Below, one piece after another: positions 1,040 through 25,894 of a DNA stretch of 46,486 nt. Origin of the DNA: Nocardiopsis chromatogenes YIM 90109 (GTDB lineage: Bacteria; Actinomycetota; Actinomycetes; Streptosporangiales; Streptosporangiaceae). The notes under the pieces were generated by a model. It did no database searches. It saw only the letters and a program-made list of their open reading frames with translations, and had not been told where the DNA came from. Within the stretch, counting starts at the first letter, position 1. Every line of letters starts with the position of its first letter. The translations under genes and the position numbers were made by a program. The stretch is taken from contig NZ_ANBH01000058.1 in assembly GCF_000341185.1 (NCBI RefSeq), forward strand, positions 1-46,486, in the 5' to 3' direction.

Positions 1040-1879
1040 TTATCGATCGTGGTTCAACAGCGTTCGGGCGTGGCCGTGAAGCAGCGGAGCGAGTTCTGGA
1101 TCGTCTCCGCGCTCGATGCGCAGCAGAAGACGAGCGATGACGTAGAGCTGCGCGCGCACGCCGTCGGGGGTGTCGAGCTGGTCGGCGAAGACCTCCCGCA
1201 CCCTTCCAGCGGTCCCCGGCTGCAACAGGCTGTGGCACAACAGGGTCGCGGCGTCGAGTCCGGCCGGTGCCCGCCCCCAGCCTTCCCAATCAAGGATGCC
1301 CAGATCAGGGCCGAGCACGTTGTTCCAATGCAGGTCCGCGTAAGCGGTGCGCCATTGCTGAACCGTCGGGTCGATGGCGTCGCCGAAGAACACCAGCAAC
1401 CGGCGCGAGATGTCTTCCTGGGCGACCGCGATCCGCTCCGTCGGTGTCCGCCCGACCCGGTCGAGTGCGCCCCGTAGGTCTGCCCACCAGGCGCCGGAGA
1501 GCCTCGGGGCGTCGCGGAGCTCGGCAGTCGGCGAGCACACGCGCCCGGGAAGGCGGGTCATCAGCTCGGCGCGCACGCGCTCGGGCGCCTCATCCCATTC
1601 GGTGACCTCGACGACCTCGGGCTTGGGAACGCCCGTGATCACGGAGGAATCGGCGTTGCCGGTCCAGAACTCGCCATGTGCCCAGCTCATGTGCTCGGTC
1701 GTCACGCGAACCCACATGTCCCCACGGCGCTCTGTGGCGGGCGCGCCGATGCTGCGGTCGCGCCACCCGAACACCACGTCGCCGGCCACGGTCGTCCCGA
1801 AGCCCTCGGCCGCTCGGGCGAGCAGGTCGCGCATGCGGGCGCGGTGGCGCTGGTCGGCGAGCGTCTGGGCGGTGGTCAT
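1040..1879 (-). CDS. APH/choline-kinase-like phosphotransferase
   Basis: This 279-residue protein resembles the aminoglycoside phosphotransferase (APH) fold of small-molecule kinases. The catalytic loop appears as DLHWNN (about 182-187), matching the family pattern H-x-D-x4-N only in part, followed by the metal-binding segment ILDWEGWG (about 195-202). The ATG at 1879 overlaps the stop of the upstream ATPase gene (ATGA), so the two are probably translationally coupled. It is the last gene of the leftward cluster. In this context it may phosphorylate a cluster-made metabolite; antibiotic resistance is possible but not indicated. The substrate cannot be read from sequence. Confidence 0.7.
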   Translation of the reverse strand: MTTAQTLADQRHRARMRDLLARAAEGFGTTVAGDVVFGWRDRSIGAPATERRGDMWVRVTTEHMSWAHGEFWTGNADSSVITGVPKPEVVEVTEWDEAPERVRAELMTRLPGRVCSPTAELRDAPRLSGAWWADLRGALDRVGRTPTERIAVAQEDISRRLLVFFGDAIDPTVQQWRTAYADLHWNNVLGPDLGILDWEGWGRAPAGLDAATLLCHSLLQPGTAGRVREVFADQLDTPDGVRAQLYVIARLLLRIERGDDPELAPLLHGHARTLLNHDR

Positions 1880-2616
1880 GAGTCGATGATGTGGCGAAGG
1901 TACTTGCCGGGGCCGGACAGGTAGCGGCGCCAGTGGTCGACCATCTCCAGCTCTTCCCACTTGCTCCGGCGCGCGCCGTGGTCGCCGACTTCGATGATGT
2001 CGGCGCCGGGGGTCGCCGACAGGATCGGGCTGTGCGTGGCGCAGATGATCTGTGAGCCGGACTCGGCGAGCTCGTGCATGAGTCCGACCAGGCGAAGGCA
2101 GGACATAAAGCTAAGCGCCGCTTCGGGTTCATCCATCAAGTACAGGCCGGGCTTGTCGAACATGGCGTTCAGGATGATCAGGAACCCTTCGCCGTGGCTG
2201 TGCTCGGACAGGTTCTCATCCCAGTAGCCGTGCATGCCCGAGACGGCTTCGGCGAACCCGAACGTCGTTTCGGCGCGCAGGAAGTACCCCGTGCGGGAGC
2301 GGCGCCCGGCGCTCATCTGCCGGGCGCCGCGTTGGGTCAGGTCCAGACGCAACCCCTCGCCCAGCGGCGTCTTGGGGCGGTTGTTGGCGTACTTGCGCCC
2401 GGCGCGACCGCCGCGCGCGTCCAGTCCGTAGGCTTCGGCGATCCCTTCGACCAGGGTCGACTTGCCCGAGCCGTTCTCGCCGACCAGGAACGTAACCGGC
2501 GCGTGGAACTCCAGTGGCTCGGTGAGCAGTCGGCCGACGGCCGGCACCGTGTAGGGCCAGTCGTTCGGGTCCGGGGGGTCGAGTCCTTCGGGGATGTCGA
2601 TGCCTTGGACGAACAC
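1876..2616 (-). CDS. SMC/ABC-type ATPase (AAA_21-like)
   Basis: A soluble 246-residue ATPase with Walker A GENGSGKST (46-54), a signature-like SHGE (about 140-143), Walker B LYLMDEPEA (158-166) and switch histidine in ATHSP (about 193-197). There are no membrane segments, so it is not a transporter by itself. It starts at a GTG with an AGAGGAA ribosome site, 9 bp after the radical SAM stop, and overlaps the kinase gene start. Stand-alone ATPases of this kind occur with many partners, in repair, defence and biosynthesis. Here the tight operon packing links it to the radical SAM enzyme and kinase. Confidence 0.8.
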   Translation of the reverse strand: MFVQGIDIPEGLDPPDPNDWPYTVPAVGRLLTEPLEFHAPVTFLVGENGSGKSTLVEGIAEAYGLDARGGRAGRKYANNRPKTPLGEGLRLDLTQRGARQMSAGRRSRTGYFLRAETTFGFAEAVSGMHGYWDENLSEHSHGEGFLIILNAMFDKPGLYLMDEPEAALSFMSCLRLVGLMHELAESGSQIICATHSPILSATPGADIIEVGDHGARRSKWEELEMVDHWRRYLSGPGKYLRHIIDS

Positions 2617-2625
2617 GCTGTTCCT

Positions 2626-3600
2626 CTACCGGTAGTTCGGTGCGCAGTTGCCTGCGGGGGTGCAGTCCCCCTTGGGCTGACACGCCGGGCTGCACGAGGG
2701 TCCGCACTGCGGGTCGCACATCTTCGGCACGCACGTAGACGCTTCGGTGAACTCCGCTTGGAGCTCACCCACCACGGTAGCCATTCGTTCACTGTTGAGG
2801 ATGTGGTTCAACGACTGCTCTCGCACGTTGCCGACCGGAAGCCAGCGGGTGAAGACGCACGGCCATACCGTGCCGTCCGGAGCGACGGCGAGATTGCCGT
2901 GTGCGCACCGCCCCCACAGTACCGAGGTGTCGGGCTCGGCGTCGGTCTGGGCGCCGCGGCCGACGCCGCGAAGGTCGTCGTACCGGACTTCGTCGAGGCC
3001 CAGGTCGACGAGCATGCGGCTCGCCTGGTCGCTTCGCTGGGACTCCAGAACACCGATGACACCGGCGCGCAAGGGGATGTCGCGCCGCTTGGCCTCGGTG
3101 ATGTTGGCGAGCGTGCGCGCGTGGGTGGGGCGCTGGGTGATCTTCGCGTGCTCGTCGGGGTCGTCGGAGTACCACGACGTCGCCAACCGCACGCCGGGGC
3201 GCTCGAAGACCTCCCACAGTTCCGCGGGGACGTGCACGAGGTTGGTGAAGACCTCGACTTCGAGACGCCGATCGAGCGCGTGCTCGATCAGCTCGCCGAG
3301 ATCGGGGTGAAGCACCGGTTCGCCACCGATGAACTGAACCATCCCGGCGCCGGCCTCGGCGACGTCGTCGATGACGCGTCGCCAGTCCTGGGCGGTCATG
3401 GTGCCGTGGGTGCCGTCGGGGCCGCTGTCGGCGTAGCAGTGGGTACACGCCAACTGGCACTTGCCGGTGATCTCCAACCAGACGAAGCGCAGGGGCGGAA
3501 CGTGGTTGGTAGGGGTGGAGTTCTCAAGGGGGGCGTCACGACAGTCTTTTCCGAAGCGGTCGTGCGGGTTACTGGTTCCCCCACGCCCAGGACGGAACAA
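2626..3600 (-). CDS. Radical SAM/SPASM protein with Cys/Pro-rich tail
   Basis: The protein (up to 324 residues) carries the [4Fe-4S]-SAM motif C-x3-C-x2-C as CQLACTHC (48-55) and the SAM-contacting GGEP (92-95). A SPASM-like region follows, with CAHGNLAVAPDGTVWPC supplying two cysteines. The last 37 residues hold seven cysteines spaced by 3-5 residues with many prolines, which could bind further iron-sulfur clusters. SPASM enzymes usually modify peptides or small carbohydrates; no precursor peptide gene is visible nearby. The start is uncertain: only a TTG at 3600 is available in frame, and the first 35 residues look unlike the rest, so the true start may differ. Confidence 0.8.
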   Translation of the reverse strand: MFRPGRGGTSNPHDRFGKDCRDAPLENSTPTNHVPPLRFVWLEITGKCQLACTHCYADSGPDGTHGTMTAQDWRRVIDDVAEAGAGMVQFIGGEPVLHPDLGELIEHALDRRLEVEVFTNLVHVPAELWEVFERPGVRLATSWYSDDPDEHAKITQRPTHARTLANITEAKRRDIPLRAGVIGVLESQRSDQASRMLVDLGLDEVRYDDLRGVGRGAQTDAEPDTSVLWGRCAHGNLAVAPDGTVWPCVFTRWLPVGNVREQSLNHILNSERMATVVGELQAEFTEASTCVPKMCDPQCGPSCSPACQPKGDCTPAGNCAPNYR

Positions 3601-3652
3601 CGGGCACGCGAGGGGTCTATGTCGGCCCCGGAAGGAAGGGGCGTTTCCAGCG

Positions 3653-4447
3653 TCAGTGAGCCTTGGGAAGCGGGGACCCGAGGTCGGTCACCGGAGTATC
3701 CGCACGCAGTACCCGGACCGGCGCCGTTCGGGCGTAGGCGGCGACGGCCAGTGAGAGCTTGGGCTCTCCGTCCGGATTCCGGTACGTGTGCAGGAAGTCG
3801 AGGAAGGCGCGGCTGACCCGCGCCCGACCTTCGAGAAGCGCGAGGTTCGCTCGACCGTGCCGGGCTTCGAGCTCCTGGGCTGTCAGGGCGTCGGGTTTCT
3901 CGACGAGTCCGACCACGTGGTCACCGTCGCAGGCCAGGACGCCGCGGTGTGCGGCTTCGGCTCGGGCGTAGGGGCGCGCGAACACCGCCGTCTCGGCGCC
4001 GAGCTCGCCCAGGGACGCCACGGGACGCGCGCCGGGGTACAGGTTGTCGGAGTACAGCACGTAGAGATGTCTCGGACGGTCGAGATAGTCGTCGGCGTTG
4101 AGCACGGACGTGATGTCGCTGTAGGGGCCGCTCTGGGGGATCAGGTCGAGGGCCACCTCGGGCCACCGCTGGGGCGTCGGTGCTGTCGAGGCGAGCCGGT
4201 CATAGGTGTCAGGCATGTTCAGGACGCGGCTCGCCCAGGCCGCGAACGCTGCGTAGTAGGGATGGTGCACCATGACTGCCCGCACGTTTCCCAGCTCCGC
4301 AACTTCCTCTAGCAGAAGCACAATTCCCGGTCTGCCCTGAACCGGAAAGTATTCCTTCGGAAGAAACCGGGACCAATCGGCGCGGCGCGTCCCCAACCCT
4401 CCGGCGGCGATCACCGCAAAGTTCCGTTTCGCCTTTACCGATTCCAT
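3653..4447 (-). CDS. Sugar-phosphate-type nucleotidyltransferase
   Basis: A 264-residue protein of the NTP-transferase (GalU/RmlA-like) fold. The N-terminal nucleotide-binding signature reads AAGGLGTR followed by SRFLPKEYFPV, close to the family G-G-x-G-T-R...P-K. A second conserved block is VLYSDNLYP, the likely metal-binding aspartate. VGLVEKPD matches the EKP motif common in this fold. Such enzymes join a nucleotide to a phosphorylated sugar or small acid. The ATG at 4447 has a GGGG ribosome site and faces the NUDIX gene across about 30 bp. Activation of a kinase product is an attractive but unproven idea. Confidence 0.8.
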   Translation of the reverse strand: MESVKAKRNFAVIAAGGLGTRRADWSRFLPKEYFPVQGRPGIVLLLEEVAELGNVRAVMVHHPYYAAFAAWASRVLNMPDTYDRLASTAPTPQRWPEVALDLIPQSGPYSDITSVLNADDYLDRPRHLYVLYSDNLYPGARPVASLGELGAETAVFARPYARAEAAHRGVLACDGDHVVGLVEKPDALTAQELEARHGRANLALLEGRARVSRAFLDFLHTYRNPDGEPKLSLAVAAYARTAPVRVLRADTPVTDLGSPLPKAH

Positions 4448-4476
4448 TGGTATGCCCCGTTCGCTAGGGTGCCGGT

Positions 4477-4917
4477 ATGGATACACGAGTGACGGGCCTC
4501 CTCGTGGAGGACGGGAAAGTACTGCTGCTTGACCAGGACACCGACGGGCCTCGGCGGTGGAGCCTGCCCGGTGGACGGGTCGAGGAAGGCGAAGCGCTCG
4601 GCGACGCCTTGGTACGCGAGATGCGCGAAGAGACGGGCATCGAAGTTGAAGTCGGGCGACTTCTCTACGTGTGCGACCACATCGTTCCCGAAAAGGACCT
4701 TCACGTCATTCACATGACTTTCGAGGTGCGTAAAGTGGGCGGATCTCTCGGTGAAATCGCCGAAGGGTTGGACACCCGCCCGATTCGCGGAGTGGAGTTC
4801 GTGAAAACCGCCGAGCTTCCCGAGCGGGGATTCAGTGACACCTTCGCCCGTCTGGTCGACGAGGGGTTCCCGGGCGCCGGCTCGTACATGGGGCCCAAGT
4901 CGGCGATCGGGCTATGA
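4477..4917 (+). CDS. NUDIX hydrolase
   Basis: This 146-residue protein has a complete NUDIX box (G33 to I55: G-x5-E-x7-R-E-x2-E-E-x-G-I), the metal site for hydrolysing nucleoside diphosphates linked to another group. It is divergent from the nucleotidyltransferase gene, and its stop overlaps the stop of the sulfotransferase-SUMF1 gene (4912-4917). It is the only rightward gene of the cluster. It may recycle or proofread an activated nucleotide made by the transferase, or simply be a passenger. The substrate is unknown. Confidence 0.88.
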   Translation: MDTRVTGLLVEDGKVLLLDQDTDGPRRWSLPGGRVEEGEALGDALVREMREETGIEVEVGRLLYVCDHIVPEKDLHVIHMTFEVRKVGGSLGEIAEGLDTRPIRGVEFVKTAELPERGFSDTFARLVDEGFPGAGSYMGPKSAIGL

Positions 4918-6552
4918 CAAGAGCGTGATCGCCTCCTGGTCGAACTCGGCCAGGGGGTGCCCGCGGTCGCCGAGGCCGGCGACCCAGCGGTTCAGGCGGT
5001 CGGCGATCTCCCGGGGCGGGCACCTGTGGCCGGTCGAGGTATCGCGGACCAAGCGCACACCGACGCCGCGGGACGCGCCGAGCAGGGTCCGGGACCGCCG
5101 CCGCACCACCTCGGCCCGTGTGGCAGGGGTGTTCCACGCGGCACCGTGCAGGTACCGCGTCACCGGTGCCCACTCGGGTTCGTCGTCCGGACCGTCCACG
5201 CACCAGGTCTGAAGGTTGCCGACCCGGTGGTGTACGGCGTCGGCGCTTGCTCCGGGCTCGGCGACGGGGGTCACGTCGCCGACGCGGTACTCGGCGTTGC
5301 CTGCCTCGGCGCCGCTGGTGAGCCGGTCGAGCTCGTCGGCGGTCGGGAGGCGCGCGCCTTCCCGTAGGGCGTAGGCCGCGGCGCCGAGCCACGTCACCCA
5401 GTAGGCCGGATGGTGGTCGAACCCCGGGCTCACGATCCATCCGTCACGCCCGGGGTGAAGACGGCCACCCCGTTCGTGCGGCATGGGGACCGCCAGCAGA
5501 TGCACACCGTCCCGAGTCGCTGTGAAGCCGGCGTCGACGAGTTCGTTCAAGAACTCGACCATCTCGGCGTTGGAGACCAGGACGTTCCGCCACTGGGGCC
5601 CAGCCGGACCCGACGGGACGTAGGCCGGGGTGATCGGCGCCCCCTGGTGAGTGATCGTCAGAGGTGGTGCGGGCGCATCGCTCGTGATCCCGGGCGCCTG
5701 CCTGTAGGCGTCCGACCCTCCCAGCCAGTGCCGGACCGTCTTTGCCACCTCGGGCGCCGTGATGTCGCGTACGACGCTCAAGCACCGTGCGGTCTCGGTC
5801 ACCACCAGATCAGCAGAACCGGGCCGGAGCCGGGCCACCAGCTCGCTCTTTGCCGTCGTGGTGGCGAAGGTGTCGTCGGAGATGGGCCCCTGACAGGGTC
5901 CGGCCGACGGCCGCGCGTCGACTTCCGGGAGTAGCTCGACCAAGGGACGCATGGCGGACGGCCGGTCGAGCACCGCCGCTTCGTAGGAGACGTGCACGTA
6001 CTCGCGTCCGCCGAGGGACTCGGCCAAAAGGGTCGTGTTCAAGGTGATCAGGCGGGTAAGTGCGACGGGCGGGCACGGGTCGTCGTCGGGCACGAGCTCG
6101 GCCCAGCGAAGGCGGTCGTCGTCCTGGGTCATGGCGACGATCCGGCGGTAGATGCTGCCGTATCCCCAGCGCCCCCACAGCTCTCCGCGGGTGAAGGAAC
6201 TCGCCACTCCGAGCGGGGAGCGCGACAGGATGACCACGGGAGCATCCGGGAACATGCTGAGAAGGTCCGGGGCGGTGAAGTAGAGGTTCGTCTCTTTGAT
6301 GACGTGGGTTCCGCCGTGGTACTTGCTCCGGCGGAACGCCTCGACCCAGTGGGTAGCCAGTGGCGAACGGGCGACGTGACCGGTCGGGGCGGTACTCAAC
6401 GGCGCCAAGGGGTGTTCTCGGCCGAGCTGTTGCCGAAGGGGTTCGTTGTGCTGGGTCGTCGAGGCTCGCAAGGAGTCGAGGACCCAGTTCGACCCGACGC
6501 GCTCGGAGGTCCCCAACACGAGAATCGGAGGGCGCGTCAACTCGGTATCCAT
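4912..6552 (-). CDS. Sulfotransferase-like/SUMF1-like fusion protein
   Basis: A 546-residue protein with two parts. Residues 8-280 look like a sulfotransferase: a P-loop-like GTSERVGSNW (14-23) and the phosphate-binding VVILSRSPLGVASSF (106-120). Residues 315-505 look like the formylglycine-generating enzyme (SUMF1/EgtB) fold: SNAEMVEFLNELVDAGF, PAYWVTWLGAAAYALREGAR, GNLQTWC and GVGVRLVRD. The copper-binding cysteine pair of true formylglycine-generating enzymes is not seen, so the C-terminal half probably does something else. The ATG has an upstream GAGGAGG ribosome site. I know of no named function for this combination. Confidence 0.75.
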   Translation of the reverse strand: MDTELTRPPILVLGTSERVGSNWVLDSLRASTTQHNEPLRQQLGREHPLAPLSTAPTGHVARSPLATHWVEAFRRSKYHGGTHVIKETNLYFTAPDLLSMFPDAPVVILSRSPLGVASSFTRGELWGRWGYGSIYRRIVAMTQDDDRLRWAELVPDDDPCPPVALTRLITLNTTLLAESLGGREYVHVSYEAAVLDRPSAMRPLVELLPEVDARPSAGPCQGPISDDTFATTTAKSELVARLRPGSADLVVTETARCLSVVRDITAPEVAKTVRHWLGGSDAYRQAPGITSDAPAPPLTITHQGAPITPAYVPSGPAGPQWRNVLVSNAEMVEFLNELVDAGFTATRDGVHLLAVPMPHERGGRLHPGRDGWIVSPGFDHHPAYWVTWLGAAAYALREGARLPTADELDRLTSGAEAGNAEYRVGDVTPVAEPGASADAVHHRVGNLQTWCVDGPDDEPEWAPVTRYLHGAAWNTPATRAEVVRRRSRTLLGASRGVGVRLVRDTSTGHRCPPREIADRLNRWVAGLGDRGHPLAEFDQEAITLLS

Positions 6553-8273: not shown

Positions 8274-8427
8274 ACGTGCCTCCTCGGGAGTCGCCGGGTG
8301 GGAAGGCCCGGCTGCTTCAGGTGGAGCCATCGTCACACAGCCCGGACTATATTCTCAATGCCCATGTTTGAAGTCGGTGCGAGAATCTAACCTGCACAGT
8401 GAGGTCAAGGTTGGGCGGTGTACTAAT

Positions 8428-8458
8428 TTGTCTGCTGGTGGGAAGTTCGGCGTAGGAT
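8428..8458 (+). promoter_or_regulatory. Putative promoter of the XRE-DUF397 pair
   Basis: TTGTCT (8428-8433) and TAGGAT (8453-8458) are separated by 19 bp, close to the housekeeping sigma pattern of actinomycetes, and lie about 40 bp upstream of the XRE start. Judged by eye only. Confidence 0.35.
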
Positions 8459-8496
8459 CACAGGCGAGAGCCACTTCGACGAGGAGCGACCCGACG

Positions 8497-9345
8497 ATGG
8501 CCAGCAGCCCTCCCCTCCGCCGTCGGCGCCTGTCCCGGCGCCTGCGTGAACTACGGGAGGCGAGCGGCTACACGTCGGAGTACGTGACCGCTGAGGCGAA
8601 GCGCCGTGGTGGAAAGTGGTCGCGGGGCAAGCTCACGCGGATCGAGAACAACGAGTGGACCAGGCCCGACCCCAAGGACGTCGAGGCCCTGCTGGACATC
8701 TACAAGGTGACCGATCCGCAGGAGCGCGACGCCTACCTCACCCTCGCCAAGCAGGCGCGCCAGCGCGGATGGTGGGTCAGCTACTCCGACGTTGTCGGCA
8801 AAGGGACCTACGTCGGTCTCGAAATCGAAGCGTCCCGCATCCGCACCTACGAGGCCCTCGTCGTCCCCGGCCTCCTCCAGACCGAGGCGTATGCCCGCGC
8901 CGTGATGAGCAGCCACGGCGTCACCGACCCCAGCGACATCGACCGCCGCGTCGAGGCGCGGGAGATGCGCAAGCAGATCCTCGCGAAGGCCGACGCGCCG
9001 CGCATCTGGGCGATCATCGACGAGGCCGCCCTGCGCAAGATCCCCGCCGACATCCGCGAGGAGCAACTGCGATACCTGGTCGACATCCAGCGGCCGTCAC
9101 TGCGCATCCAGGTTCTCCCGGACAGTGCCGGCCTCCACGCCGCCACCGCTGGGTCGTTCGTGATCCTGGACTTCCCGGAGGACCCGCCGGTCGTATACCG
9201 GGAAGATGTAATGTCCGAGCTGTTCTACGAGGACCCGGTCGAGGTCGACCATTGCGAGATGGTCTACGACCATGTCCACGCCTCGGCGCTGAGCGTGGAA
9301 GAGTCCCAACAGTTCCTCGAAGAACTGATCAGCGCATCCCAGTAG
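8497..9345 (+). CDS. XRE regulator with DUF5753-like domain (Scr1/WhiJ type)
   Basis: A 282-residue regulator. The N-terminal helix-turn-helix (about 10-65) reads LSRRLRELREASGYT then TRIENNEW. The rest matches the DUF5753 domain of Scr1/WhiJ-type regulators, including the marker YEALVVPGLLQTEAYAR and LRIQVLPDSAGLHA. Such proteins pair with a DUF397 partner in a toxin-antitoxin-like or developmental control module. The next gene is exactly such a partner, 10 bp downstream. The ATG at 8497 has a GAGGAG box about 10 bp upstream. Confidence 0.88.
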   Translation: MASSPPLRRRRLSRRLRELREASGYTSEYVTAEAKRRGGKWSRGKLTRIENNEWTRPDPKDVEALLDIYKVTDPQERDAYLTLAKQARQRGWWVSYSDVVGKGTYVGLEIEASRIRTYEALVVPGLLQTEAYARAVMSSHGVTDPSDIDRRVEAREMRKQILAKADAPRIWAIIDEAALRKIPADIREEQLRYLVDIQRPSLRIQVLPDSAGLHAATAGSFVILDFPEDPPVVYREDVMSELFYEDPVEVDHCEMVYDHVHASALSVEESQQFLEELISASQ

Positions 9346-9355
9346 GAGAACACCA

Positions 9356-9553
9356 ATGCCTGCCGCATCCCACAGGCTGGTCTTCCGGAAGTCCAGCTAC
9401 TCCCAGGGCAAGACGCAGAACTGCGTCGAGGTCGCCGACGCCCCCGGGGCATCCGCTGTTCGTGACAGCAAGCATCCGGGCGCCGGCCATCTCCAGTTCC
9501 CGGCCACCGAGTGGCGAGCGTTCCTGGAGGACCTCAAGGCCGACCGCATCTGA
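9356..9553 (+). CDS. DUF397 protein (Scr2/WhiJ partner type)
   Basis: A 65-residue DUF397 protein with the family marks FRKSSYSQG, NCVEVAD, AVRDSKHP and a C-terminal W-R-A-F-L. It follows the XRE gene at 10 bp with a TAGGAGAA ribosome site. In characterised pairs the small protein antagonises or is antagonised by the XRE protein. A strong terminator lies 12 bp beyond the stop, making this a closed two-gene unit. Confidence 0.9.
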   Translation: MPAASHRLVFRKSSYSQGKTQNCVEVADAPGASAVRDSKHPGAGHLQFPATEWRAFLEDLKADRI

Positions 9554-9761: not shown

Positions 9762-9890
9762 CTACGGCTGCTTGCCGGTCCCGCCGCACATCGTGCACGG
9801 GACCATCGCTACGGTCCCGTCCTGGGACTGCTGCACCTGCCCACGCCCGGCGCAACCCGAGCAGTTGACCTCTTTGCGGTGCTCACCCAT
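9762..9890 (-). CDS. 42-residue Cys4 zinc-ribbon peptide
   Basis: A short gene with two DnaJ-like C-x2-C-x-G-x-G knuckles: CSGCAGRG (10-17) and CTMCGGTG (32-39). Four cysteines suit a single zinc ribbon. The ATG at 9890 lies inside the end of the methyltransferase gene (stop 9883) and has a GGAGGA ribosome site a few bases upstream, so translation is coupled. It probably works with, or is regulated together with, the methyltransferase. DnaJ-type knuckles bind proteins or nucleic acids; the target is unknown. Confidence 0.7.
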   Translation of the reverse strand: MGEHRKEVNCSGCAGRGQVQQSQDGTVAMVPCTMCGGTGKQP

Positions 9891-10980
9891 CGCGTCCTCC
9901 GATCACGTTGTCCGGACGGTCCAGCCACACGTGCTGCCCCTGTCGGTCGACGAGCAGCCCGAGACGGTCGCGGCCCGGGGACCCCATCCCCAGCCACTCC
10001 AGGTAGACCTCCTCCAGCTCCGCCCACAGTGACCGGGGGCCGCTCTCCTCCACGTCGGGCCCCTCCCCGCCCGTGCGGATGGCGAGGGCGTAGGAGCCGG
10101 TGCCCGGGTCCCACAACCCGACCCGGTCGTCAGGGGCGCCCAGGGCGTCGATCGCGACCCCGGGGAGGAGCGCCGCCGCCACCACCTCCAGGCCCCGGTC
10201 CGCACCGGCGATGCGCATCGGGTCGACGCGGCCGATGGAGTCGCGGAGCTCGCCGGTCAGCCGGGGCAGCCCCCGGCGCTGGGAGCGCAGCATCATGAAC
10301 GAGGTGTCGCCGTAGAAGCGCCCCACGGCGCGCCCGCCGCCCAGTCCCGTCAGGGCCACCTTGTGAGCCATCACCTGCACCGGCGCCCAGGGCAGGACCA
10401 TCACGCCGCCGGGGCGCAGCTGCTCTGCCCACACGGCCGGGATACCGGCCACGGCGCAGGTGACGTGCACCCGGTCGAAGGGCGCGCCCTCAGGGTGCCC
10501 CTGCGCGCCGTCGCCCACGACGAGACGGGGCGCGAGTCCGGCGCGCTTGAGGTTGTCCTCCGCTCGGGAGGCGATCTGGGCGTCGACCTCGACCGTGGTC
10601 ACCCGGTCCTCGCCCAGACGCGCGGCCAGTAGACCGGCGGTCCACCCGGTGCCGGTGCCGATCTCCAGTACCCGGTCGCCGGGATGGGGGGCGAGCAGCC
10701 GGAGGAAGTCCAGCACGAGGCCGGGGGCGGTCGAGGAGCTGGTGGGCAGCCCCGTGGTGTCCGGCGTGAGGGGGGCGGCGCCGTCGTCCACCTGGGTGAG
10801 GATGGTGGTGTCGCTGTAGACCGCCTCCCGCCACCGGTCGGGGTCGCTGCTGCGGTCGATCAACTGGTGGCCGGCCACGGCCCGGTCGGGGATGAAGTGT
10901 TCGCGCGGTACGGCGCGGAACTCCTCATCCCAGTCGGGCACGGCCAAGGCGGTGAGACGGTCAACGTCGGCATCGGCCAT
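9883..10980 (-). CDS. PIMT-like O-methyltransferase (RiPP/FxLD-associated type)
   Basis: A 365-residue SAM-dependent methyltransferase resembling protein-L-isoaspartate O-methyltransferase, with N-terminal VPREHFIPD and SAM-binding VLEIGTGTGW (about 105-114). It is longer than housekeeping PIMT (about 210 residues): an extra C-terminal half is shared with homologues that modify ribosomal peptides (lanthipeptide and graspetide clusters). No ATP-grasp, LanB-like or precursor gene is visible here, so the pathway role is inferred only. It overlaps the 42-residue zinc peptide gene. Confidence 0.75.
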   Translation of the reverse strand: MADADVDRLTALAVPDWDEEFRAVPREHFIPDRAVAGHQLIDRSSDPDRWREAVYSDTTILTQVDDGAAPLTPDTTGLPTSSSTAPGLVLDFLRLLAPHPGDRVLEIGTGTGWTAGLLAARLGEDRVTTVEVDAQIASRAEDNLKRAGLAPRLVVGDGAQGHPEGAPFDRVHVTCAVAGIPAVWAEQLRPGGVMVLPWAPVQVMAHKVALTGLGGGRAVGRFYGDTSFMMLRSQRRGLPRLTGELRDSIGRVDPMRIAGADRGLEVVAAALLPGVAIDALGAPDDRVGLWDPGTGSYALAIRTGGEGPDVEESGPRSLWAELEEVYLEWLGMGSPGRDRLGLLVDRQGQHVWLDRPDNVIGGRDG

Positions 10981-11041
10981 GAGACGACGGTAACTGTGCG
11001 GGTGCGGTCTGTCAGGAGGTGACCGGGGCCGGTCACCCACG

Positions 11042-11245
11042 TCACCTCACCGACCCCGGCCAGGCGGCCGTGGCCACAAGCTCGCCCTGGTAAGGAGCGG
11101 CCGGGCGGTCACCGTGTCCGGCCACGGGCCGCTCGGCCGGGGCGGGGGCCGGGCGGACCCCGGCCAGCTCCAGCGCCGCCTCGACCCGGCGGACGATCCG
11201 GCGGCCGGTGCGCTCCGAGCAGCCGGTCATGGCGGCCACCTCGCC
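11042..11245 (-). pseudogene. C-terminal remnant of a helix-turn-helix protein
   Basis: The minus strand reads ...MTGCSERTGRRIVRRVEAAL... then a Pro/Ala-rich stretch to a stop at 11042. The first part resembles a recognition helix of a replication or regulatory DNA-binding protein. The coding resemblance fades where the opposite-strand asparagine-synthase remnant begins. I read it as a fragment left by recombination; a chance frame is possible. Confidence 0.3.
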
Positions 11246-12308
11246 GTGGCCGACCGACCACGTCCTCGTAGAGACCGAGCCCGCCCTACACCGGGTTCCG
11301 CGTCGGCTTGCGCCGGACGCCGATGTCGTGGGGGTGTTCGTAGCGACCATGGACGCGGCGATGGACCGGCGCCCCTGGGCCGACTCCACCACCCTGTTCC
11401 ACCTGACCGGCGGGTTCGACTCGGGCACGGTGGCCACCCGCGCGGCCGAGCGCCACCCCGGCCTGTTCCCCACAGCGACCCTGCTGATCGGCGGGCCGGG
11501 ACGCGAGCAGCAGATCAGGCGCCGCGCCGAGATGCGCGAGCGCGTGCGGTTCGCCGACCCCGACCTCGTCACCGACGCCATGGAGTACCCGCCGCTGGCA
11601 CCCGGCTGCCGGTGGGTCGCCGGGGAGGTGGTCTCGCCGACGGAGGACCCCTTGCACCACCCGTTCACCATGATGGCGCGTGCCGTCGCCCAGGCCGGCG
11701 CCCGCACGGTCGTGACCGGCCTCGGCGGCGACGAGATGGTCGCCCTCACCCAGAAGGAGGAGCCGCACGAGGGGCCCGGGGACATCAGCGACGCCCAGAT
11801 CCTGCCCTGAGTCGGGCCGCGCGCACGGCAGGTGCTGGAGTTCGCCGACGACGGGATCGCGCCCCCGGCACGGGTGAACTCCATGACGCTGCTGTCGCTG
11901 GAGACGACCGCGCCGATCCTGCTGTGGGAGGGGCTGTGGCCGGTGCACCCGTTCGCCGACCCGGCGATGGTCGAGCTCGGCGAGCAGTTGCCGTTCGCCT
12001 GGCGCGAGTTGAAACAGGTACAGCGTCGGCGCCTGGCGTCGCTGGGCATGAGCGAGGACGTCGTACACCCGGTCGAGCGCGAGTCCTTCGCCGAGGTCGT
12101 CGAGCACGCGCTGACGGCCCACGCCCCGAAGCTGTTCGCTCGTATGCTGGCCGACGGATCGCCGCTGTTCGACGACGCTCTGGTCGACCCGGACGGGCTG
12201 CGCTCGGCGGTGGAGAACCTGACCGCGGGGGCCTACAGCGAAGAGCGGGACGGGAAGACCCTGGAAGTGCTGAGCCTGCACATGAGCGCCACCGCCTTCC
12301 TGCGTTGA
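11229..12308 (+). pseudogene. Asparagine-synthase-like protein, broken by an in-frame TGA
   Basis: Two open stretches in the same frame (to 11810, then from 11832) make one asparagine-synthase/lasso-cyclase-like protein of about 359 residues. The ATP-binding loop reads LTGGFDSG, near the family SGGxDS, and a later GLGGDEM is the conserved second motif. A single TGA at 11808-11810 interrupts it; CGA (Arg) would restore the frame by one C-to-T change. The glutaminase domain of true AsnB is absent, and the N-terminus seems cut at the junction with the preceding remnant. Such stand-alone domains adenylate carboxylates in peptide biosynthesis. Confidence 0.7.
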
Positions 12309-18700: not shown

Positions 18701-19425
18701 CACTCGTCTCCCAACGCGTCCATGGGCTCGTGGACAAGGGGGGCGGCCTGGAGCGGCGCGGCCTGCGCGGCCTGGGGGTTGGGCACGGTAACCGTCGTGT
18801 ACTCCACGCCGCGCATCGAGTAGCGGCGGTGGGCCTGGTCGAAGCTGACGGGCACGTCGCGCTGTTCGTGGTCGGCGGTGTGCCCTTTGCGCACGTCGAT
18901 CCACACGCCCAGCTCCACCTCCGCTTCCCTCTTGCGCTTACGCTGGTACCACTTGCCCGCCAGCCACGGGTGCGCCTCCAGGGCCGACTCCAGGTCCTCC
19001 TCGACGGCGCCCTGGGGGATGGGGCGTGCCGGGGGGCACGACCTGCGGCCCAGATAGGGCAGGTAGACCGGTGCCCGAAGGGTTTGGTGCAGCTCCTCGA
19101 CCAGGGCCCGGTCACCTTCGAACGCGGCGAGGAAGACCGCGTCGGCCAGGTAGAAGCGATCGGAGACCGGCATGGCCTCGCCGGTGTCGCCGTGGTGGGC
19201 GGTCTGGAAGTCGCGCAGCCGCACGCCCGGCTGGTCGACGCGCACCCCGAATCGCAGGGCGGCCAGGTCGCTGACGTCGTCGCTGCGCTCGCGGCCCTGG
19301 GCGGCGGCGAGCAAACCGACAAGCCCGCTCTTGGTGGGGGCGTTCTCGGTCGAGCGGCGGGCGAAGCGGGACGCGGCGCCCCATGACTGCAGTGGTCCGG
19401 CGAGCTGCAGCAGGAGCACGCTCAT
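18700..19425 (-). CDS. cas5: Cas5e, Cascade subunit
   Basis: A 241-residue Cas5e (CasD), which binds the 5' handle of the crRNA in Cascade. The start MSVLLLQLAGPLQSWG is the family hallmark, followed by TENAPTKSGLVGLLAAAQGR. FQTAHHGDTGEAM and YLPYLGRRSCPPARP are further conserved blocks. The ATG overlaps the cas7 stop (ATGA), fitting co-translation of the complex. Confidence 0.94.
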   Translation of the reverse strand: MSVLLLQLAGPLQSWGAASRFARRSTENAPTKSGLVGLLAAAQGRERSDDVSDLAALRFGVRVDQPGVRLRDFQTAHHGDTGEAMPVSDRFYLADAVFLAAFEGDRALVEELHQTLRAPVYLPYLGRRSCPPARPIPQGAVEEDLESALEAHPWLAGKWYQRKRKREAEVELGVWIDVRKGHTADHEQRDVPVSFDQAHRRYSMRGVEYTTVTVPNPQAAQAAPLQAAPLVHEPMDALGDE

Positions 19426-20597
19426 GCCGGGTTCTCCATGCGGGCGGCCACCGCCTGTCCGACCCCACCTACCATCTGGTCCAGCGTGGACGCCGTGCCC
19501 AGCGCCTCAAGGGGCTTGGTTGCCTCTCCGACGCGAAGGAGCCAGGTCTTGGCGTCGGCCACCCCGTAGACGCGCTCGATCTCGGCGATGTGCTCGGTGA
19601 GCTTGGCGCAGGCGTGTCCGACCTGCCCGTCGGGGGTGTCCTGGGGGACGGGGTCCTCGAACGCGCCGGCGAAGCTGATCGGGCGCGCGTCGCGCAGCTT
19701 GACGATGACCGCGGCCGGCAGGCTGTGGTTCGCGAAGGTATTGGACTTACCGGTGGGCATGGACTCCACGAAGCAGCGGACGAACGCCTCGACCGCGCGG
19801 CGCACCGGTTCGGCGGCGGGTCGGCCCTCCTGGATCCCGGCCCCGAGGTTGGAGGCGAGCCGGTCGACGTCGACCGCGGCGTAACGGTAGAGCGTTGCGG
19901 CATTGAATTCGACGGTGCCGATCATTCCCGCGCCGGGCTCGTCGTCCTCGCGGCGGTCGTCGACGGCGGTGTAGTAGTCGGCCTCGATCTCGGCGGCGTG
20001 CACGCTGATGGCGTGAGCGACCTGGGCCGAGGCGTCGACGTTGATGTCGGAGGAGTCGGCGACCATACGGCCGAACAGCGCGATGTCGACCGAGTGGTTG
20101 GTATTGGCGATCTGCTTGGCGCGCTTCTTGTTCTCCGGGTCCTTGAGGAATGCCTTGATGTCGGCGCGCCCCTGCACGGCCAGTTCGGCGAGGCCGTCGC
20201 GCTGACGCGCGCTGAGGAACATCAGGTAGGAGGACTCGGGGGCGCGGTCCTCCTCCTCGCCCTTGCGGCGCTTGGGCTTCTCGACCTTGGATCCGGTGGC
20301 CGCGGTCACGGTCGCGGCGGCCAGCTCCAGTGCCTCTTCCTGGGGGATGCTGTCGTCGAGTTCCGCGATGCGCCCGGCGACCAGTTCAGCGACGCGCTTG
20401 GTGCGTGTGCCCAGCTCCTCAGGGGGCAGGACCCCGTTGAACGCCTCCCGTGTGGCGCGCTTCCATGCCTGGCTGGAGACCCTTGCGCGGCGAACACCGC
20501 CGTAGACCGCCCCCTTGGGCGAGCCGGTGTCGTCGCGGTTGATGTTGCTCGGGGGGACGGTCTGCAGAATGTGCACGTCCAGGATGGTTCGGCTCAC
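19422..20597 (-). CDS. cas7: Cas7e, Cascade backbone subunit
   Basis: A 391-residue Cas7e (CasC/Cse4), the six-copy backbone protein of Cascade. It starts at a GTG, SRTILDVHILQTVPPSNINRD, a standard N-terminus. RRARVSSQAWKRATREAF and DIALFGRMVA are recognisable family segments, as is the late NTFANHSLPAAVIV. The GTG overlaps the cse2 stop (GTGA). Length is usual for the family. Confidence 0.95.
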   Translation of the reverse strand: MSRTILDVHILQTVPPSNINRDDTGSPKGAVYGGVRRARVSSQAWKRATREAFNGVLPPEELGTRTKRVAELVAGRIAELDDSIPQEEALELAAATVTAATGSKVEKPKRRKGEEEDRAPESSYLMFLSARQRDGLAELAVQGRADIKAFLKDPENKKRAKQIANTNHSVDIALFGRMVADSSDINVDASAQVAHAISVHAAEIEADYYTAVDDRREDDEPGAGMIGTVEFNAATLYRYAAVDVDRLASNLGAGIQEGRPAAEPVRRAVEAFVRCFVESMPTGKSNTFANHSLPAAVIVKLRDARPISFAGAFEDPVPQDTPDGQVGHACAKLTEHIAEIERVYGVADAKTWLLRVGEATKPLEALGTASTLDQMVGGVGQAVAARMENPA

Positions 20598-21343
20598 GAG
20601 GCGTCCTTGTCGGTGTCGTCGGTGGTGCGGGGTGCCCGGTAGGAGTTGAACCCGAAGTTCCATGCGCGGCGGACCTCGGAGATGCCGCCGGGCTGCTGGG
20701 CCTTGTGGATGTGCTCGGCCAGGAGCGCGTAGTCCAGGGGGACACGGTGACGGTGGAGCAGATCCACGAGGCCGCGAAGGCGGTCGGCCATGGTCCTGGC
20801 GCTGGTGGCCTTGCCCGCCTGGACGAAGCGCTGGCGCACCGGGTCATGGATCGAGACCGGTCCTGCCTTCCGCTGCCGGCCGTCGGCACCGGCGTCGGGC
20901 TCAGGCTCGGAGGGCGCCTGGTCCATGAGCGCACGCACGGCCCACCCAAGGTTGTGGCGGACAGTGGGGCGCCCCTCCGGCTTAGGGGCGGCCCACTTGT
21001 ACATCCGCAGGTCCGCGCTGCGAAGGGACTGCTGGTGCACGGCGTACAGGCTCAGCGCGATGTGCGCGGCGCGGACGGGGATGTCGTCGTCGAGCCACAC
21101 CTCGTGCAGGCCGTAGTCGTACCCCAGGAGCCGGGGAAGGTCCTCGGGGAGGCGGCCCGCGCCGGGGCGCAGCCCGGCGAGTACCTGCACGGCCATCGGG
21201 TCGTCGGGGTCGCTCACATAGCCCCGCTGGAGCCACAGGAGTTGGCCGTGGACGGCCTGGCCGAAGCCGGTGAGTTCCTTCCGCTCCGCGTCCCCTGCTG
21301 CGCCTTCTCCTGCTGGTTCTGTCGTCTCGGTCGTGGGCTCCAC
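20594..21343 (-). CDS. cse2: Cse2 (Cas11e), Cascade small subunit
   Basis: A 249-residue Cse2/CasB, the small-subunit dimer of type I-E Cascade that stabilises the displaced strand. It is helical, with the family pattern HIALSLYAVHQQS and RRAWNFGFNSYRAP at the end. The start is the GTG at 21343, 2 bp after the cse1 stop; an ATG further upstream in the same frame would overlap cse1 by almost 100 bp. An acidic/Thr tail of about 30 residues precedes the conserved region. Confidence 0.9.
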   Translation of the reverse strand: MEPTTETTEPAGEGAAGDAERKELTGFGQAVHGQLLWLQRGYVSDPDDPMAVQVLAGLRPGAGRLPEDLPRLLGYDYGLHEVWLDDDIPVRAAHIALSLYAVHQQSLRSADLRMYKWAAPKPEGRPTVRHNLGWAVRALMDQAPSEPEPDAGADGRQRKAGPVSIHDPVRQRFVQAGKATSARTMADRLRGLVDLLHRHRVPLDYALLAEHIHKAQQPGGISEVRRAWNFGFNSYRAPRTTDDTDKDAS

Positions 21344-21345
21344 GG

Positions 21346-23007
21346 TCAGTCTCCGGGCTCGTCGGGTTCCTGGGTCAGGGGCAGGGCCGTGGCGAGCTCG
21401 TAGTGGAACCGCCGCTCGGCACGCCCGGCGGTCAGCCACAGCTCATCGCCCTTGTCGGTCTCGATGATCCGGCCGCTCCACGCCCGCTCCCCGGCCGCGT
21501 CGACCAGTTCGCGGCCGACCGAGGCGATGGCTCGGCGCACCTGGCGCTGCCATTTCCGCCGCTCCTCCCGTGGAGAGGAATCGGAGGCCAGCCCCGCCAG
21601 CCACACCCGGAAGAGGTGGTCGAGTTCGCCGAAGCCCCGGTCCCGGGCCTGCGCGCGCGGGGCCTCGGCGTCCAGGCCCGCCGCACGGGCGATACCGGTG
21701 GCCAGGTTCCCCAGGGCGAAGACCGCCTGATCGGCGTCCGCAGCGGCGTCGACGGCCGCCTGCCGCAGCTGCGCGGAACGGTCGGCCAGCAGGGTGATGC
21801 GCATGTTGACCCTGTCGTCGGTCACCTCGTCGATGACCGACTGCTGGGTCCCGTACCTGGCCCCCACGGTGCGCACGGACACGGGATGGTCCTCGGGGAG
21901 CGCCCCGTCGTTGGCCAGGCGGGCGGCCCACTCCACAAGCCCCGGGCGCAGGCGCTCGGCGGCCTCGCCCCGCTGGCGCCCGGCCCGGCCCTGCAGCAGC
22001 GATTCCAGGCCCCGCCAGGCGCTGCGGGCCGGATCGTGCTCGGCGGGCATATAGACCTGGTTCTTTCCCAGCTTCTTCTCCTGGGCCGGGCTGCGCCGCC
22101 AGGCGGTCATCGGTTCGCGGTGGTGCTGGTTGGGCGCGTCCAGCGGGTCGCCGTAGCACAGCAGCACCCCGTGGACCCCGTCGTCATCGGCGAAGAGGCG
22201 GATGCGGCGGCCCTGCCAGGTGTACAGGTCGCGCAGGCCGTAGGGGCGATAGACCTGCTCGGCGCCGCGCAGTGCCGCCGCCCCGGCGGGCGGGAGGGCC
22301 CACGCCGGTCGGTCCTGGTCGTCGGTGCGGATGTCGGAGTCGAAGGCGATGAGGTTGAGCAGCAGCGTCTCGCGCAGGTCCCGGCCTTCCAGGAAGACCC
22401 CGCCGAGGTTCCCGGCCCACCCGACACCCTGGGGGTAGCCTTTGCCGTTCTTCACCCGCGCATCACCCACGGCTCCGGACTTGATACCGGAGGGGTCGTA
22501 GGCGTGGGCGTGCACGAGCCAGCGCGCCGCTTCGGCGAAGCCCAACCGCTGGGCGCCGCGGGCCCGCATGGTGAAGAACGGGGCCCCGTTGGGCACGTCG
22601 GCGACGATCCGGTCCAGGGGGAAGAACTCGTTCTTGGCCGTGTGCAGGTCTGCGACCTGCATGAAGGGGGCCTTGGGGTGCAGCAGGTCGAATCGGTCGC
22701 GGTGTCGGCCGAGGTAGTCGCGGATCTGCTGGACGGGTAGCTCCTTGGCCTCCCACAGCTCCTGCCACTCCCCCACGTCGGCGGGCCCGTCGAGGGCGTC
22801 GTGCAGGACGGCCAGCAGCAGGCGCAGCAGGGCGAACTCCTGGGTGGGAAGGTCGCCCACGATGCGGCGGATGCCGTTCGGGCCGCTGTCGGCGCCCTCG
22901 AAGACCTCGGTCAAGGACAGCTCGGCTTCGCTGCCGTCGCGCCTACGCACCGGGATCCAGGGGCGCTCGGTCAGGTCGAAGCCTGTTGCGCCGCCGTCAG
23001 TGGGCAT
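21346..23007 (-). CDS. cse1: Cse1 (Cas8e), Cascade large subunit
   Basis: A 553-residue Cse1/CasA, which recognises the PAM and recruits Cas3. It starts near FDLTERPWIPVRRRDGS and has the typical block LRLLLAVLHDAL. The loop NGAPFFTMRARGAQRL and GVGWAGNLGGVFLEGRDLRETLLLNL match the family. Its start overlaps the end of cas3 by 11 bp, consistent with one transcript. Size is normal. Confidence 0.94.
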   Translation of the reverse strand: MPTDGGATGFDLTERPWIPVRRRDGSEAELSLTEVFEGADSGPNGIRRIVGDLPTQEFALLRLLLAVLHDALDGPADVGEWQELWEAKELPVQQIRDYLGRHRDRFDLLHPKAPFMQVADLHTAKNEFFPLDRIVADVPNGAPFFTMRARGAQRLGFAEAARWLVHAHAYDPSGIKSGAVGDARVKNGKGYPQGVGWAGNLGGVFLEGRDLRETLLLNLIAFDSDIRTDDQDRPAWALPPAGAAALRGAEQVYRPYGLRDLYTWQGRRIRLFADDDGVHGVLLCYGDPLDAPNQHHREPMTAWRRSPAQEKKLGKNQVYMPAEHDPARSAWRGLESLLQGRAGRQRGEAAERLRPGLVEWAARLANDGALPEDHPVSVRTVGARYGTQQSVIDEVTDDRVNMRITLLADRSAQLRQAAVDAAADADQAVFALGNLATGIARAAGLDAEAPRAQARDRGFGELDHLFRVWLAGLASDSSPREERRKWQRQVRRAIASVGRELVDAAGERAWSGRIIETDKGDELWLTAGRAERRFHYELATALPLTQEPDEPGD

Positions 23008-25894
23008 CGGTCACCTCAAGACCGTCCTCGTGGGAGTAGTGCACGTCGAAGCCTGCCAGGCGGGTCCGACAGTCCTCGTCGAGGATGAGAAGGAGCTCTC
23101 CGGACACCCAGTGGGCGTCCTTGTCCTGCCAGGCCGGGAAGAGGTTCTGCTCCAGCTCCCCGATGACCCGGTCGATCACCCAGGGGGCGACCAGCGGGAA
23201 GGGCAGGCGCACCGCGCTGGCGGCGGCGATGCGCCCGGCCTCCTCGGACGGGGCGAAGTCGGTGGGAAGCTCGATGCCGCCCCTGCCCTCCCCCAGGCCG
23301 GGAAGGGTCGTGAGCACGCCGTCCGCACGCCGCCGCAACAGCAGCACCTCCAGGCTCTCCCCCGCGTCGCGCACCTGCGCCCGGCCCCGCGGGGTGTCGT
23401 CGGCGTCCCCGACCCCGGCCTGGACCCACCCGATGAGCGAGCGCCCCGCCCGTGCGGGCGCGCCGAGCACGAACGCGCGCGCCTCCTCGGTCTTGGCCGC
23501 CTGCTCGACCTCGTGCGACTCCCGCGCCTGCTCCAGCGCCTCCTGCCACTCGGGGGGACCGATCGGATCAGGTCCGTAGGCGCCTTGGACCAGGCGGTCG
23601 ATGTCGTCGGGCAGGACCACCGACCCGCCAGCGGAGCCTCGGCCGTCGTCGGCCTGGAGGAGGGGATCGAGCGCCGCGGCCGCACGCAGCAAGGGGTAGG
23701 GGCGGTAGACGAACTGCGACCCCGAATCCGGCTCGGGCGGCTGCTTCGCCCAGGCGGTTCCGGTGATCAGGCAGCGGGCCGTGCGCAGCCTCTCGGGGCG
23801 CTCGTGCTGGCCCTCACCGCGGAGGTGGCGGTGCAGGCGGCCCATGCGCTGCAGCATCAGGTCGACGGGGGCCAGGTCGGTGACCAGCAGGTCGAAGTCG
23901 ATGTCCAGGGACTGCTCGGCCACCTGGCTGGCGACCACGATGCGGGGGTGCTCGGGGCGCCGTCCGCCGAGTTCAGCGACCTTGGCCGACGGCCCGAAGG
24001 CCGCCAGTAGCTCCCGGTCCTTGTCCGCCCGGTCCAGGTCGGCGAAGCGCGCGTGCGCGACGGTGACCTCGACGTCCGTTCCGGCGAACCGGTCGCGCAG
24101 CACCCGGGCGGCGGCGTGGACCCGCTTGACGGTGTTGCGCACGACCAGCGCGCAGCCGCCCCCGGCCAGCTCGCTCTCAAGACGGCGGGCCAGGACGTCC
24201 GGATCATCGTCGAGGCGTTCGATCCGGACCTCGGTCCTGCGGCCCGAGGCCTCCACGGCCTCCACGCGCGGCGCCTTTCCGGGCACGGCGCTGGTCAGGA
24301 GCGGGTACCCCTGCGCCTTCTCGACCGCATCGAACTCGGCCGAACCGCGCCGGGCCTGGCAGTAGGCCTCGACCAGCTCCCTGCGGCGGCGCGCCGGAAG
24401 CGTCGCCGACAGGACCACCACCGGGACCCGGTAGGCGCCCAGCCAGGACAGAACGGTGTCCAGGTAGGTGTTCATGTAGGTGTCGTAGGCGTGCGCCTCG
24501 TCGACCACCACGACCTTGCCCGCCACGGCCAGGTGCCGCAGCGCCAGGTGGCGGCTCTTCAGGCCCGCGAAGAGGAGCTGGTCGATCGTCCCGGCCGCGA
24601 AGTCCGAGAGCATCCCCTTCTTCCGGCCCCGCAGCCACCAGTGGGCCGCCAGCCCGCCGCCCCGGCTCTCGGCGGCGTCGCGCTCGACGTCGTCGGCCGA
24701 TTCCACCCCGGCGAACGGCAGATCGGCGTAGTCGTCGTTGAGGGCCGCCTTCGAGTGCGCCAGGAACACCGACGCCGAACCGTCGAGGCCCTGCAGCGAT
24801 CCGGCCCAGTCGGCCAGGCGCGAGAACATCGCGTTGCTGGTCGCCATGGTCGGGAGCGCGACGAAGCAGCCACCCGCTCCGGACACCGCCGCCAGGTCCT
24901 CGGCGGCCACCAGAGCGGCCTCGGTCTTGCCCTCCCCCATCGGCGCTTCGATGACGAGCATGCCCGGCTCGTCCATGGCCCGCGCGGCAGCGAGCGCGGC
25001 CTCCTGGACCGGCCGGACCCGGGTGCTCTCGTCCCAGGAGAAGCGCGCGGCGAACACCTCCTGGGCGCTGCCCTGCGGACGCCGGGGGCGCCAGCGCCCC
25101 CTCAGGCCAAGCCGCTGCAGGGCACGGGATACGCGTCCGTCGGCGGCGGAGCCCGCCTGCTGGAAGTAGGGGAACAGAGCGGCGTTGGAGGCGATCCAGT
25201 CACTGACGATCACCAGCGCGCTGAGCAGCACCTGGCTCGGCTGCGGCAGTTTCACCGGCGACCAGGCGTCCAGGTGTTCGCGGATCTGGCAGGCGGACGC
25301 GGCCGCGTCGAGGAGTTCGCGCTGGACCCGCTGCCACGTGTCGGTGCCCGTCGGCCCGTACAGCAGTTCCGGGTGGGCCAGGGCGTCTTGGAGATCGGCG
25401 TCGCTGGGAGGCACGCCGTGGTGGCCGCCGACGACGGCCCCGACCTGCTGCGCGGCCCGCTTGGGCCACCCGCTCTCCTGGAGCCAGGCCACGAGCAGGA
25501 GTTGCCCGGCCAGACCGTGGGGGGCGAGTGAGCGCTCTTTGCCCATCTGCGCGGCCGAAGGCATCTTCAGGCCGTGCGAGCGCATGGCCTCGGCCAGCCC
25601 TTCGACCTGGCAGGCGAACGCCGGGGTGGCCTTGCCGATGTCGTGCACCATCGCGAGCCAGACCGCCAGCCGTCGGCCGTCGGCCTCACCACCGGGCAGG
25701 GCCTCACCAATGCGGGCGCGGACCTGGGCCGGGAGCCACTCGTCCCAGAGGTAGGCCGCCGTTCCCGCGCTGTCGCCCATGTGCCGCCACAGTGGCAGCC
25801 AGCCGCCGGAGTCCCAGTCGTGCTTGGCCCACACCGCCCGTGCTGCAGCGCTCAGGTGAGCGCTTAGCTCGTGGGCGTACTCCTCGTAGGGCAT
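22997..25894 (-). CDS. cas3: Cas3 helicase-nuclease (type I-E)
   Basis: A 965-residue Cas3. The N-terminal HD nuclease shows HMGDSAG, VHDIGK and GHHG. The helicase follows with Walker A-like PMGEGKTEAAL, the DEAH box VVVDEAHAYDTYM and a C-terminal helicase domain (IVVASQVAEQSLDIDFDLLVTDLAP). The enzyme unwinds and degrades DNA bound by Cascade. The start is not secure: I use the ATG at 25894, just before the conserved N-terminus (WAKHDWDSGGWLPLW); an in-frame ATG at 25927 is the alternative. First gene of the cas operon. Confidence 0.93.
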   Translation of the reverse strand: MPYEEYAHELSAHLSAAARAVWAKHDWDSGGWLPLWRHMGDSAGTAAYLWDEWLPAQVRARIGEALPGGEADGRRLAVWLAMVHDIGKATPAFACQVEGLAEAMRSHGLKMPSAAQMGKERSLAPHGLAGQLLLVAWLQESGWPKRAAQQVGAVVGGHHGVPPSDADLQDALAHPELLYGPTGTDTWQRVQRELLDAAASACQIREHLDAWSPVKLPQPSQVLLSALVIVSDWIASNAALFPYFQQAGSAADGRVSRALQRLGLRGRWRPRRPQGSAQEVFAARFSWDESTRVRPVQEAALAAARAMDEPGMLVIEAPMGEGKTEAALVAAEDLAAVSGAGGCFVALPTMATSNAMFSRLADWAGSLQGLDGSASVFLAHSKAALNDDYADLPFAGVESADDVERDAAESRGGGLAAHWWLRGRKKGMLSDFAAGTIDQLLFAGLKSRHLALRHLAVAGKVVVVDEAHAYDTYMNTYLDTVLSWLGAYRVPVVVLSATLPARRRRELVEAYCQARRGSAEFDAVEKAQGYPLLTSAVPGKAPRVEAVEASGRRTEVRIERLDDDPDVLARRLESELAGGGCALVVRNTVKRVHAAARVLRDRFAGTDVEVTVAHARFADLDRADKDRELLAAFGPSAKVAELGGRRPEHPRIVVASQVAEQSLDIDFDLLVTDLAPVDLMLQRMGRLHRHLRGEGQHERPERLRTARCLITGTAWAKQPPEPDSGSQFVYRPYPLLRAAAALDPLLQADDGRGSAGGSVVLPDDIDRLVQGAYGPDPIGPPEWQEALEQARESHEVEQAAKTEEARAFVLGAPARAGRSLIGWVQAGVGDADDTPRGRAQVRDAGESLEVLLLRRRADGVLTTLPGLGEGRGGIELPTDFAPSEEAGRIAAASAVRLPFPLVAPWVIDRVIGELEQNLFPAWQDKDAHWVSGELLLILDEDCRTRLAGFDVHYSHEDGLEVTDAH

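Follow-up and report, generated by a model that had tools for sequence, protein, structure and literature searches.

The radical SAM (rSAM) enzyme encoded at 2626..3600 on the minus strand of contig NZ_ANBH01000058.1 of Nocardiopsis chromatogenes YIM 90109 is best explained, from its sequence and its predicted structure, as a type A member of an actinobacterial family of radical SAM peptide maturases without an RRE (the recognition element of ribosomally synthesized and post-translationally modified peptides, RiPPs). The whole stretch analyzed, 46,486 nucleotides, is called the window below. The enzyme ends in a tail (CVPKMCDPQCGPSCSPACQPKGDCTPAGNCAPNYR; 2629..2733, minus strand) in which all seven cysteines belong to CxP units, and we give about even chances to the proposal that this tail is an in-cis substrate, on which the rSAM enzyme acts first and a partner enzyme second. 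Somewhat more tentatively, we suggest a RiPP-like class in which the maturase and its CxP-repeat substrate form one polypeptide, exchangeable second enzymes come with matched tails, and the tail supplies the substrate missing from the reported pairs of rSAM enzymes and protein aspartate methyltransferases (PAMTs). The proposal of an in-cis substrate draws on the CxP rule, the disorder of the tail, the downstream partner, the tail type that follows this partner, the SkfB/SuiB-like fold, and the lack of a separate precursor. The initial annotation of this DNA had called the enzyme "Cys-tailed," and the Cys-rich tail is real, but it was given no interpretation there.

The wider rSAM family was studied in 70 members, with further members drawn from profile searches in a few actinobacterial families. 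Proline stands two positions after every tail cysteine (366/366) in the 67 members counted; the count leaves out L085, L109, and L111, which run on past the tail, where non-CxP cysteines occur. Since proline makes up 20% of tail residues, the rule is far from chance, although the members compared are related. The number of CxP units per tail ranges from 2 to 12. In the AlphaFold model of the window enzyme, built with 63 sequences, the core has a pLDDT (predicted local distance difference test) of about 95, and the values fall below 50 from residue 259, exactly the start of the first CxP unit; the tail is thus predicted to be disordered. Conservation was higher in the tail than in the core for 35 of the 36 type A pairs.

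In the core, the CX3CX2C cluster motif was found in 69 of the 70 members and the first SPASM motif (CX9-15GX4C) in all of them, while the second SPASM motif (CX2CX5CX3C) was found in none. The family may therefore work in the manner of SPASM/Twitch-like peptide maturases and yet not consist of canonical SPASM enzymes. The window protein passed the Pfam cut-offs for Radical_SAM (PF04055, 64 bits) and SPASM (PF13186, 40 bits) and lay above no curated NCBIfam maturase cut-off, the best match by E-value being PqqE (67.5 bits versus 381). The closest fold matches of the model were SkfB (Z 24.6) and SuiB (Z 23.7), with lower scores for BlsE (Z 21.1) and viperin (Z about 20). In SkfB and SuiB, the alignment with residue 1 of the model starts only at residue 101, and the N-terminal part that stays unaligned is the leader-binding RRE. 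Judged by this model, the window enzyme is without the N-terminal RRE of SkfB and SuiB.

A partner gene lies directly downstream of the rSAM gene in 67 of the 70 members, often at a stop-to-start distance of -4 (an overlap) or about 9-12 bases, as in coupled genes. The partners are methyltransferases of the PCMT family, like PAMT or protein isoaspartyl methyltransferase (PIMT), in 36 cases (type B; 25 B2 and 11 B1), a kinase alone in 15 (12 type C and 3 type D), and an ATPase with a kinase in 16 (type A). CxP-tailed rSAM enzymes without known partners were observed in L122, L123, and L062, the last followed at once by an unrelated 133-amino-acid open reading frame (ORF). RiPP-associated PIMTs carry the motif WXXXGXP (2026 review, PMC13001092), which was found at the C terminus of 10 of the 11 B1 methyltransferases; the B2 enzymes have WXXXG in 22 of 25 cases and WXXXGXP in 0/25. 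Against TIGR04188, the B1 and B2 methyltransferases scored 257 and 262 bits, respectively, both below the cut-off of 380.

In the window, the partners are a soluble AAA/ABC-type ATPase (1876..2616) and an APH/haspin-like kinase (1040..1879), both on the minus strand, and the two adjoin the rSAM gene in all type A loci. The ATPase matches AAA_21 with 48 bits (Pfam cut-off, 27). The kinase matched no kinase family in Pfam or NCBIfam, and its best PDB profile match, haspin, was not significant (E 0.3), so that the assignment rests on the catalytic loop. This loop was present as [HY]xDLHxxN...LDWE in 15 of 16 type A partners and invariant as DLHWxN...LDWE in an eight-sequence alignment; a broader form ([HY]xDxxxxN...DW) was found in 15/16 type A and 3/3 type D partners but only 5/12 of type C. 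The "APH-like kinase" of the initial annotation keeps its catalytic loop and has no family match behind it.

Sequence comparisons indicate that the type of tail tracks the partner and not the enzyme core. On a tree of rSAM cores without tails, the partner type changes at least 9 times. L118 and L119 share 47% identity in the core, 96% in the tail, and 83% in the methyltransferase; in L116, although its core is sister to that of L119 (65%), the partner is a kinase and the tail is unrelated (22%). Likewise, the cores of L079 and L084 are B1-like (55-68% to B1, 48-56% to B2), yet their tail is B2-like and their methyltransferase is of type B2 (58-78% to B2, 29-35% to B1). L098 and L102 were dropped as a further tail swap, as their cores match each other (61% identity) as closely as they match anything else. 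These exchanges show that cores resembling one another can bear different tails, and that the tail is not separated from its partner.

A separate precursor did not emerge. An all-against-all ORF comparison revealed no conserved small precursor-like ORF in the rSAM loci, and no stand-alone CxP peptide was found in 38 genomes. Candidates for such peptides in L152, L153, L160, and L161 were remains or broken copies of the rSAM module, and that in L162 was a chance match without CxP repeats. The earlier statement that no precursor peptide is visible thus holds for separate ORFs, but the likely peptide is the rSAM enzyme's own CxP tail.

The proposed mechanism starts with the rSAM enzyme, which would modify the CxP cysteines of its own tail or of another copy's tail, with Cys-derived crosslinks, like those made by SkfB, as the most likely product; the partner would then act on the same tail. 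In type B, the target of the PAMT/PIMT-like methyltransferase would be Asp in D-[G/S]-C-like sites; D[GS]C-like sites occur in 27/34 methyltransferase-type tails versus 4/31 kinase-type tails. In types A, C, and D, the kinase would act on Ser near Cys, and a Ser at or next to Cys (S-x0-1-C) was found in 31/31 kinase-type tails. The soluble ABC-type ATPase of type A could add an energy-dependent step, perhaps folding, release, or transfer.

Several observations weigh against this proposal. The correlation between tail residues and partners is imperfect, since Ser-Cys sites are also common in methyltransferase-type tails (23/34). With 9 changes, the partner types form clusters on the tree, so that independent events are few, and, as the tail adjoins the partner gene, one crossover could move both without functional coupling. 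Homologues of the ATPase also occur without the rSAM enzyme. The genes of the rSAM module have no conserved protease or exporter next to them, which leaves product release unexplained, and a few tail cysteines are near-invariant and could be Fe-S ligands.

These last two points also favor a structural role, in which the CxP tail, as an altered SPASM motif, helps to ligate auxiliary Fe-S clusters or another metal, and the rSAM enzyme and its partner act on a small molecule. The first SPASM motif in 70/70 members and the proximity of the fold to BlsE, a small-molecule enzyme, point in the same direction. We nevertheless consider a structural tail unlikely, given that the number of its cysteines varies between 2 and 12 while the CxP rule holds strictly, that the second SPASM motif is missing throughout, and that the whole SPASM-like half is predicted confidently without the tail. 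Furthermore, the tail type goes with the partner and not with the core, and the B1 partners have a peptide-modifying PIMT motif.

Alternatively, the tail could serve for docking or regulation by binding the partner, itself chemically unchanged, with the true substrate elsewhere in the cell; this would explain both the joint travel of tail and partner and the disorder of the tail. However, such an element needs neither CxP at every cysteine nor 2 to 12 repeats, and no candidate substrate gene is conserved nearby; we rate this explanation as less probable still than metal binding.

The initial annotation had joined the rSAM, ATPase, and kinase genes with three neighbors: a nucleotidyltransferase (3653..4447, minus strand), a NUDIX hydrolase (4477..4917, plus strand), and a sulfotransferase-like/FGE-sulfatase-like fusion (4912..6552, minus strand). 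The six genes are two separate conserved modules and not one set. Relatives were searched with the rSAM protein, and all six window proteins were then mapped on the fetched loci. The rSAM, ATPase, and kinase genes occur together in about 20 loci, with a varying order of ATPase and kinase, in genera that include Nocardiopsis, Streptomonospora, Lentzea, Actinokineospora, Actinoallomurus, and Promicromonospora; they are also found in Seinonella, a genus of Bacillota, where the rSAM frame is broken. In these loci, the nucleotidyltransferase and the fusion had no match, and the NUDIX hydrolase had two weak ones only (about 30% identity, L040 and L059), which look unspecific. Of 150 further genomes in the family, four contain the fusion, and in 4/4 it adjoins the NUDIX and nucleotidyltransferase genes, in the arrangement of the window; these three genes lie together in L141-L144, with NUDIX copies 66-88% identical and again the same arrangement, and L145 has NUDIX with the nucleotidyltransferase only. 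The rSAM trio does not lie beside them in those four genomes, and the two trios were not seen side by side in any other locus examined. Since five other species of the genus gave no match to the rSAM, ATPase, kinase, nucleotidyltransferase, or fusion proteins, both modules look like accessory genes.

Conserved co-occurrence of more than two genes in several genera, proposed as a check on the six-gene set, was thus found for each trio separately, while no further locus among those examined held all six. The joint function claimed for the set finds no support in these loci, nor does a single pathway acting on one small molecule through nucleotide activation, phosphorylation, and radical chemistry. 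The genes are adjacent in this one genome, but the two halves recur separately, the NUDIX gene is on the opposite strand, and five of the proteins lack a match in those five other species of the genus; we therefore reject the six-gene pathway as very improbable. In the mechanism with an in-cis substrate, the fusion, NUDIX, and nucleotidyltransferase genes would stand outside, as a different module. Anti-phage defence was likewise rejected, as the PADLOC matches were a generic AAA ATPase and a weak viperin. Only broken frames or remnants of the rSAM module were seen in L050, L051, L058, L071, L152, and L161, and the module therefore seems to be lost often. An insertion of two ORFs resembling an IS200/IS605-type element splits the nucleotidyltransferase gene of L141 (10547-12138).

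All six ORFs of the initial annotation were recovered, as was the ATGA overlap between the ATPase stop and the kinase start. The rSAM start is less clear: upstream of the conserved part, which begins near 3507, the reading frame offers no standard start other than TTG at 3600, and a GTG at 3539 matches the rSAM starts of relatives but sits one base out of frame, either through a sequencing error or as a real change. The nucleotidyltransferase (PF00483, NTP_transferase, 24.5 bits) and the NUDIX hydrolase (PF00293, 63.5 bits) passed their Pfam cut-offs. Both halves of the fusion gave weak matches: the FGE-sulfatase half is barely above its cut-off (24.7 versus 23.3 bits), and the Sulfotransfer_3 half is slightly below (25.5 versus 27). 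The NUDIX and fusion genes are convergent, the NUDIX and nucleotidyltransferase genes divergent; the stop overlap between NUDIX and the fusion is real, but on the opposite strand the NUDIX gene is not co-transcribed with either neighbor, and the six genes cannot be one transcript.

Elsewhere in the window, a PIMT-like methyltransferase lies beside an asparagine-synthase-like ORF (9883-11040, minus strand; 11208-12308, plus strand) and does not adjoin the rSAM gene. It scored 281 bits against TIGR04188 (cut-off, 380), its WLGMGSP fits WXXXGXP, and relatives occupy the same place relative to the fusion/NUDIX/nucleotidyltransferase module in L141 and L142. The region 8368-9553 (plus strand) encodes an XRE/DUF5753 regulator and, after it, a DUF397-like small protein; a number of the rSAM loci have similar HTH regulators no more than 3.5 kb away. 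The window also contains CRISPR-Cas genes (19422-20663 and 22997-26215, minus strand), with a Cas_CT1975-like protein and Cas3, and a pentapeptide-repeat protein (26476-27924, plus strand).

If the in-cis proposal is true, the family would provide a self-contained fusion of enzyme and substrate for radical peptide chemistry whose second steps can be swapped, and CxP would be a rule for finding more such fusions. No earlier report of a CxP-tailed radical SAM enzyme was found in the open-access literature, subscription papers being outside this search. In the accessible text of Lee et al. (2023; PMC10787088), 249 two-gene rSAM-PAMT clusters are described for which no precursor or substrate was found. 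Type B shares this two-gene layout, and we infer that it and the 249 clusters are the same set. That text, as far as it is accessible, does not mention the tail as a substrate, whereas here CxP tails are accompanied by sister versions with a kinase or an ATPase and kinase. The CxP tails could be the missing substrate of these 249 pairs, which would offer a concrete, testable answer and add a parallel set with kinases and an ATPase.

Among known systems, SkfB is both the closest fold and the closest solved relative by sequence profile. In contrast to SkfB and the sactipeptide maturases, the rSAM family has neither an N-terminal RRE nor a separate precursor, and CxP repeats replace the second SPASM motif. 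Viperin (pVip) is alike in its radical SAM core fold and in a weak PADLOC match (45 bits), but it is a weaker match than SkfB, and the rSAM enzyme differs in its SPASM-like C-terminal half, CxP tail, and partners. Borosins of the OphMA type set a precedent, in that their RiPP substrate is part of the same protein as the enzyme that modifies it (PMC11285071), although that enzyme is an N-methyltransferase and not a radical SAM protein, and no sequence relation is claimed. Finally, the methyltransferases of pamtides and imiditides belong, like those of type B, to the PCMT family, with WXXXGXP in B1; unlike in those systems, there is no stand-alone precursor here, and the rSAM enzyme is the constant part, while the methyltransferase can be replaced by a kinase.

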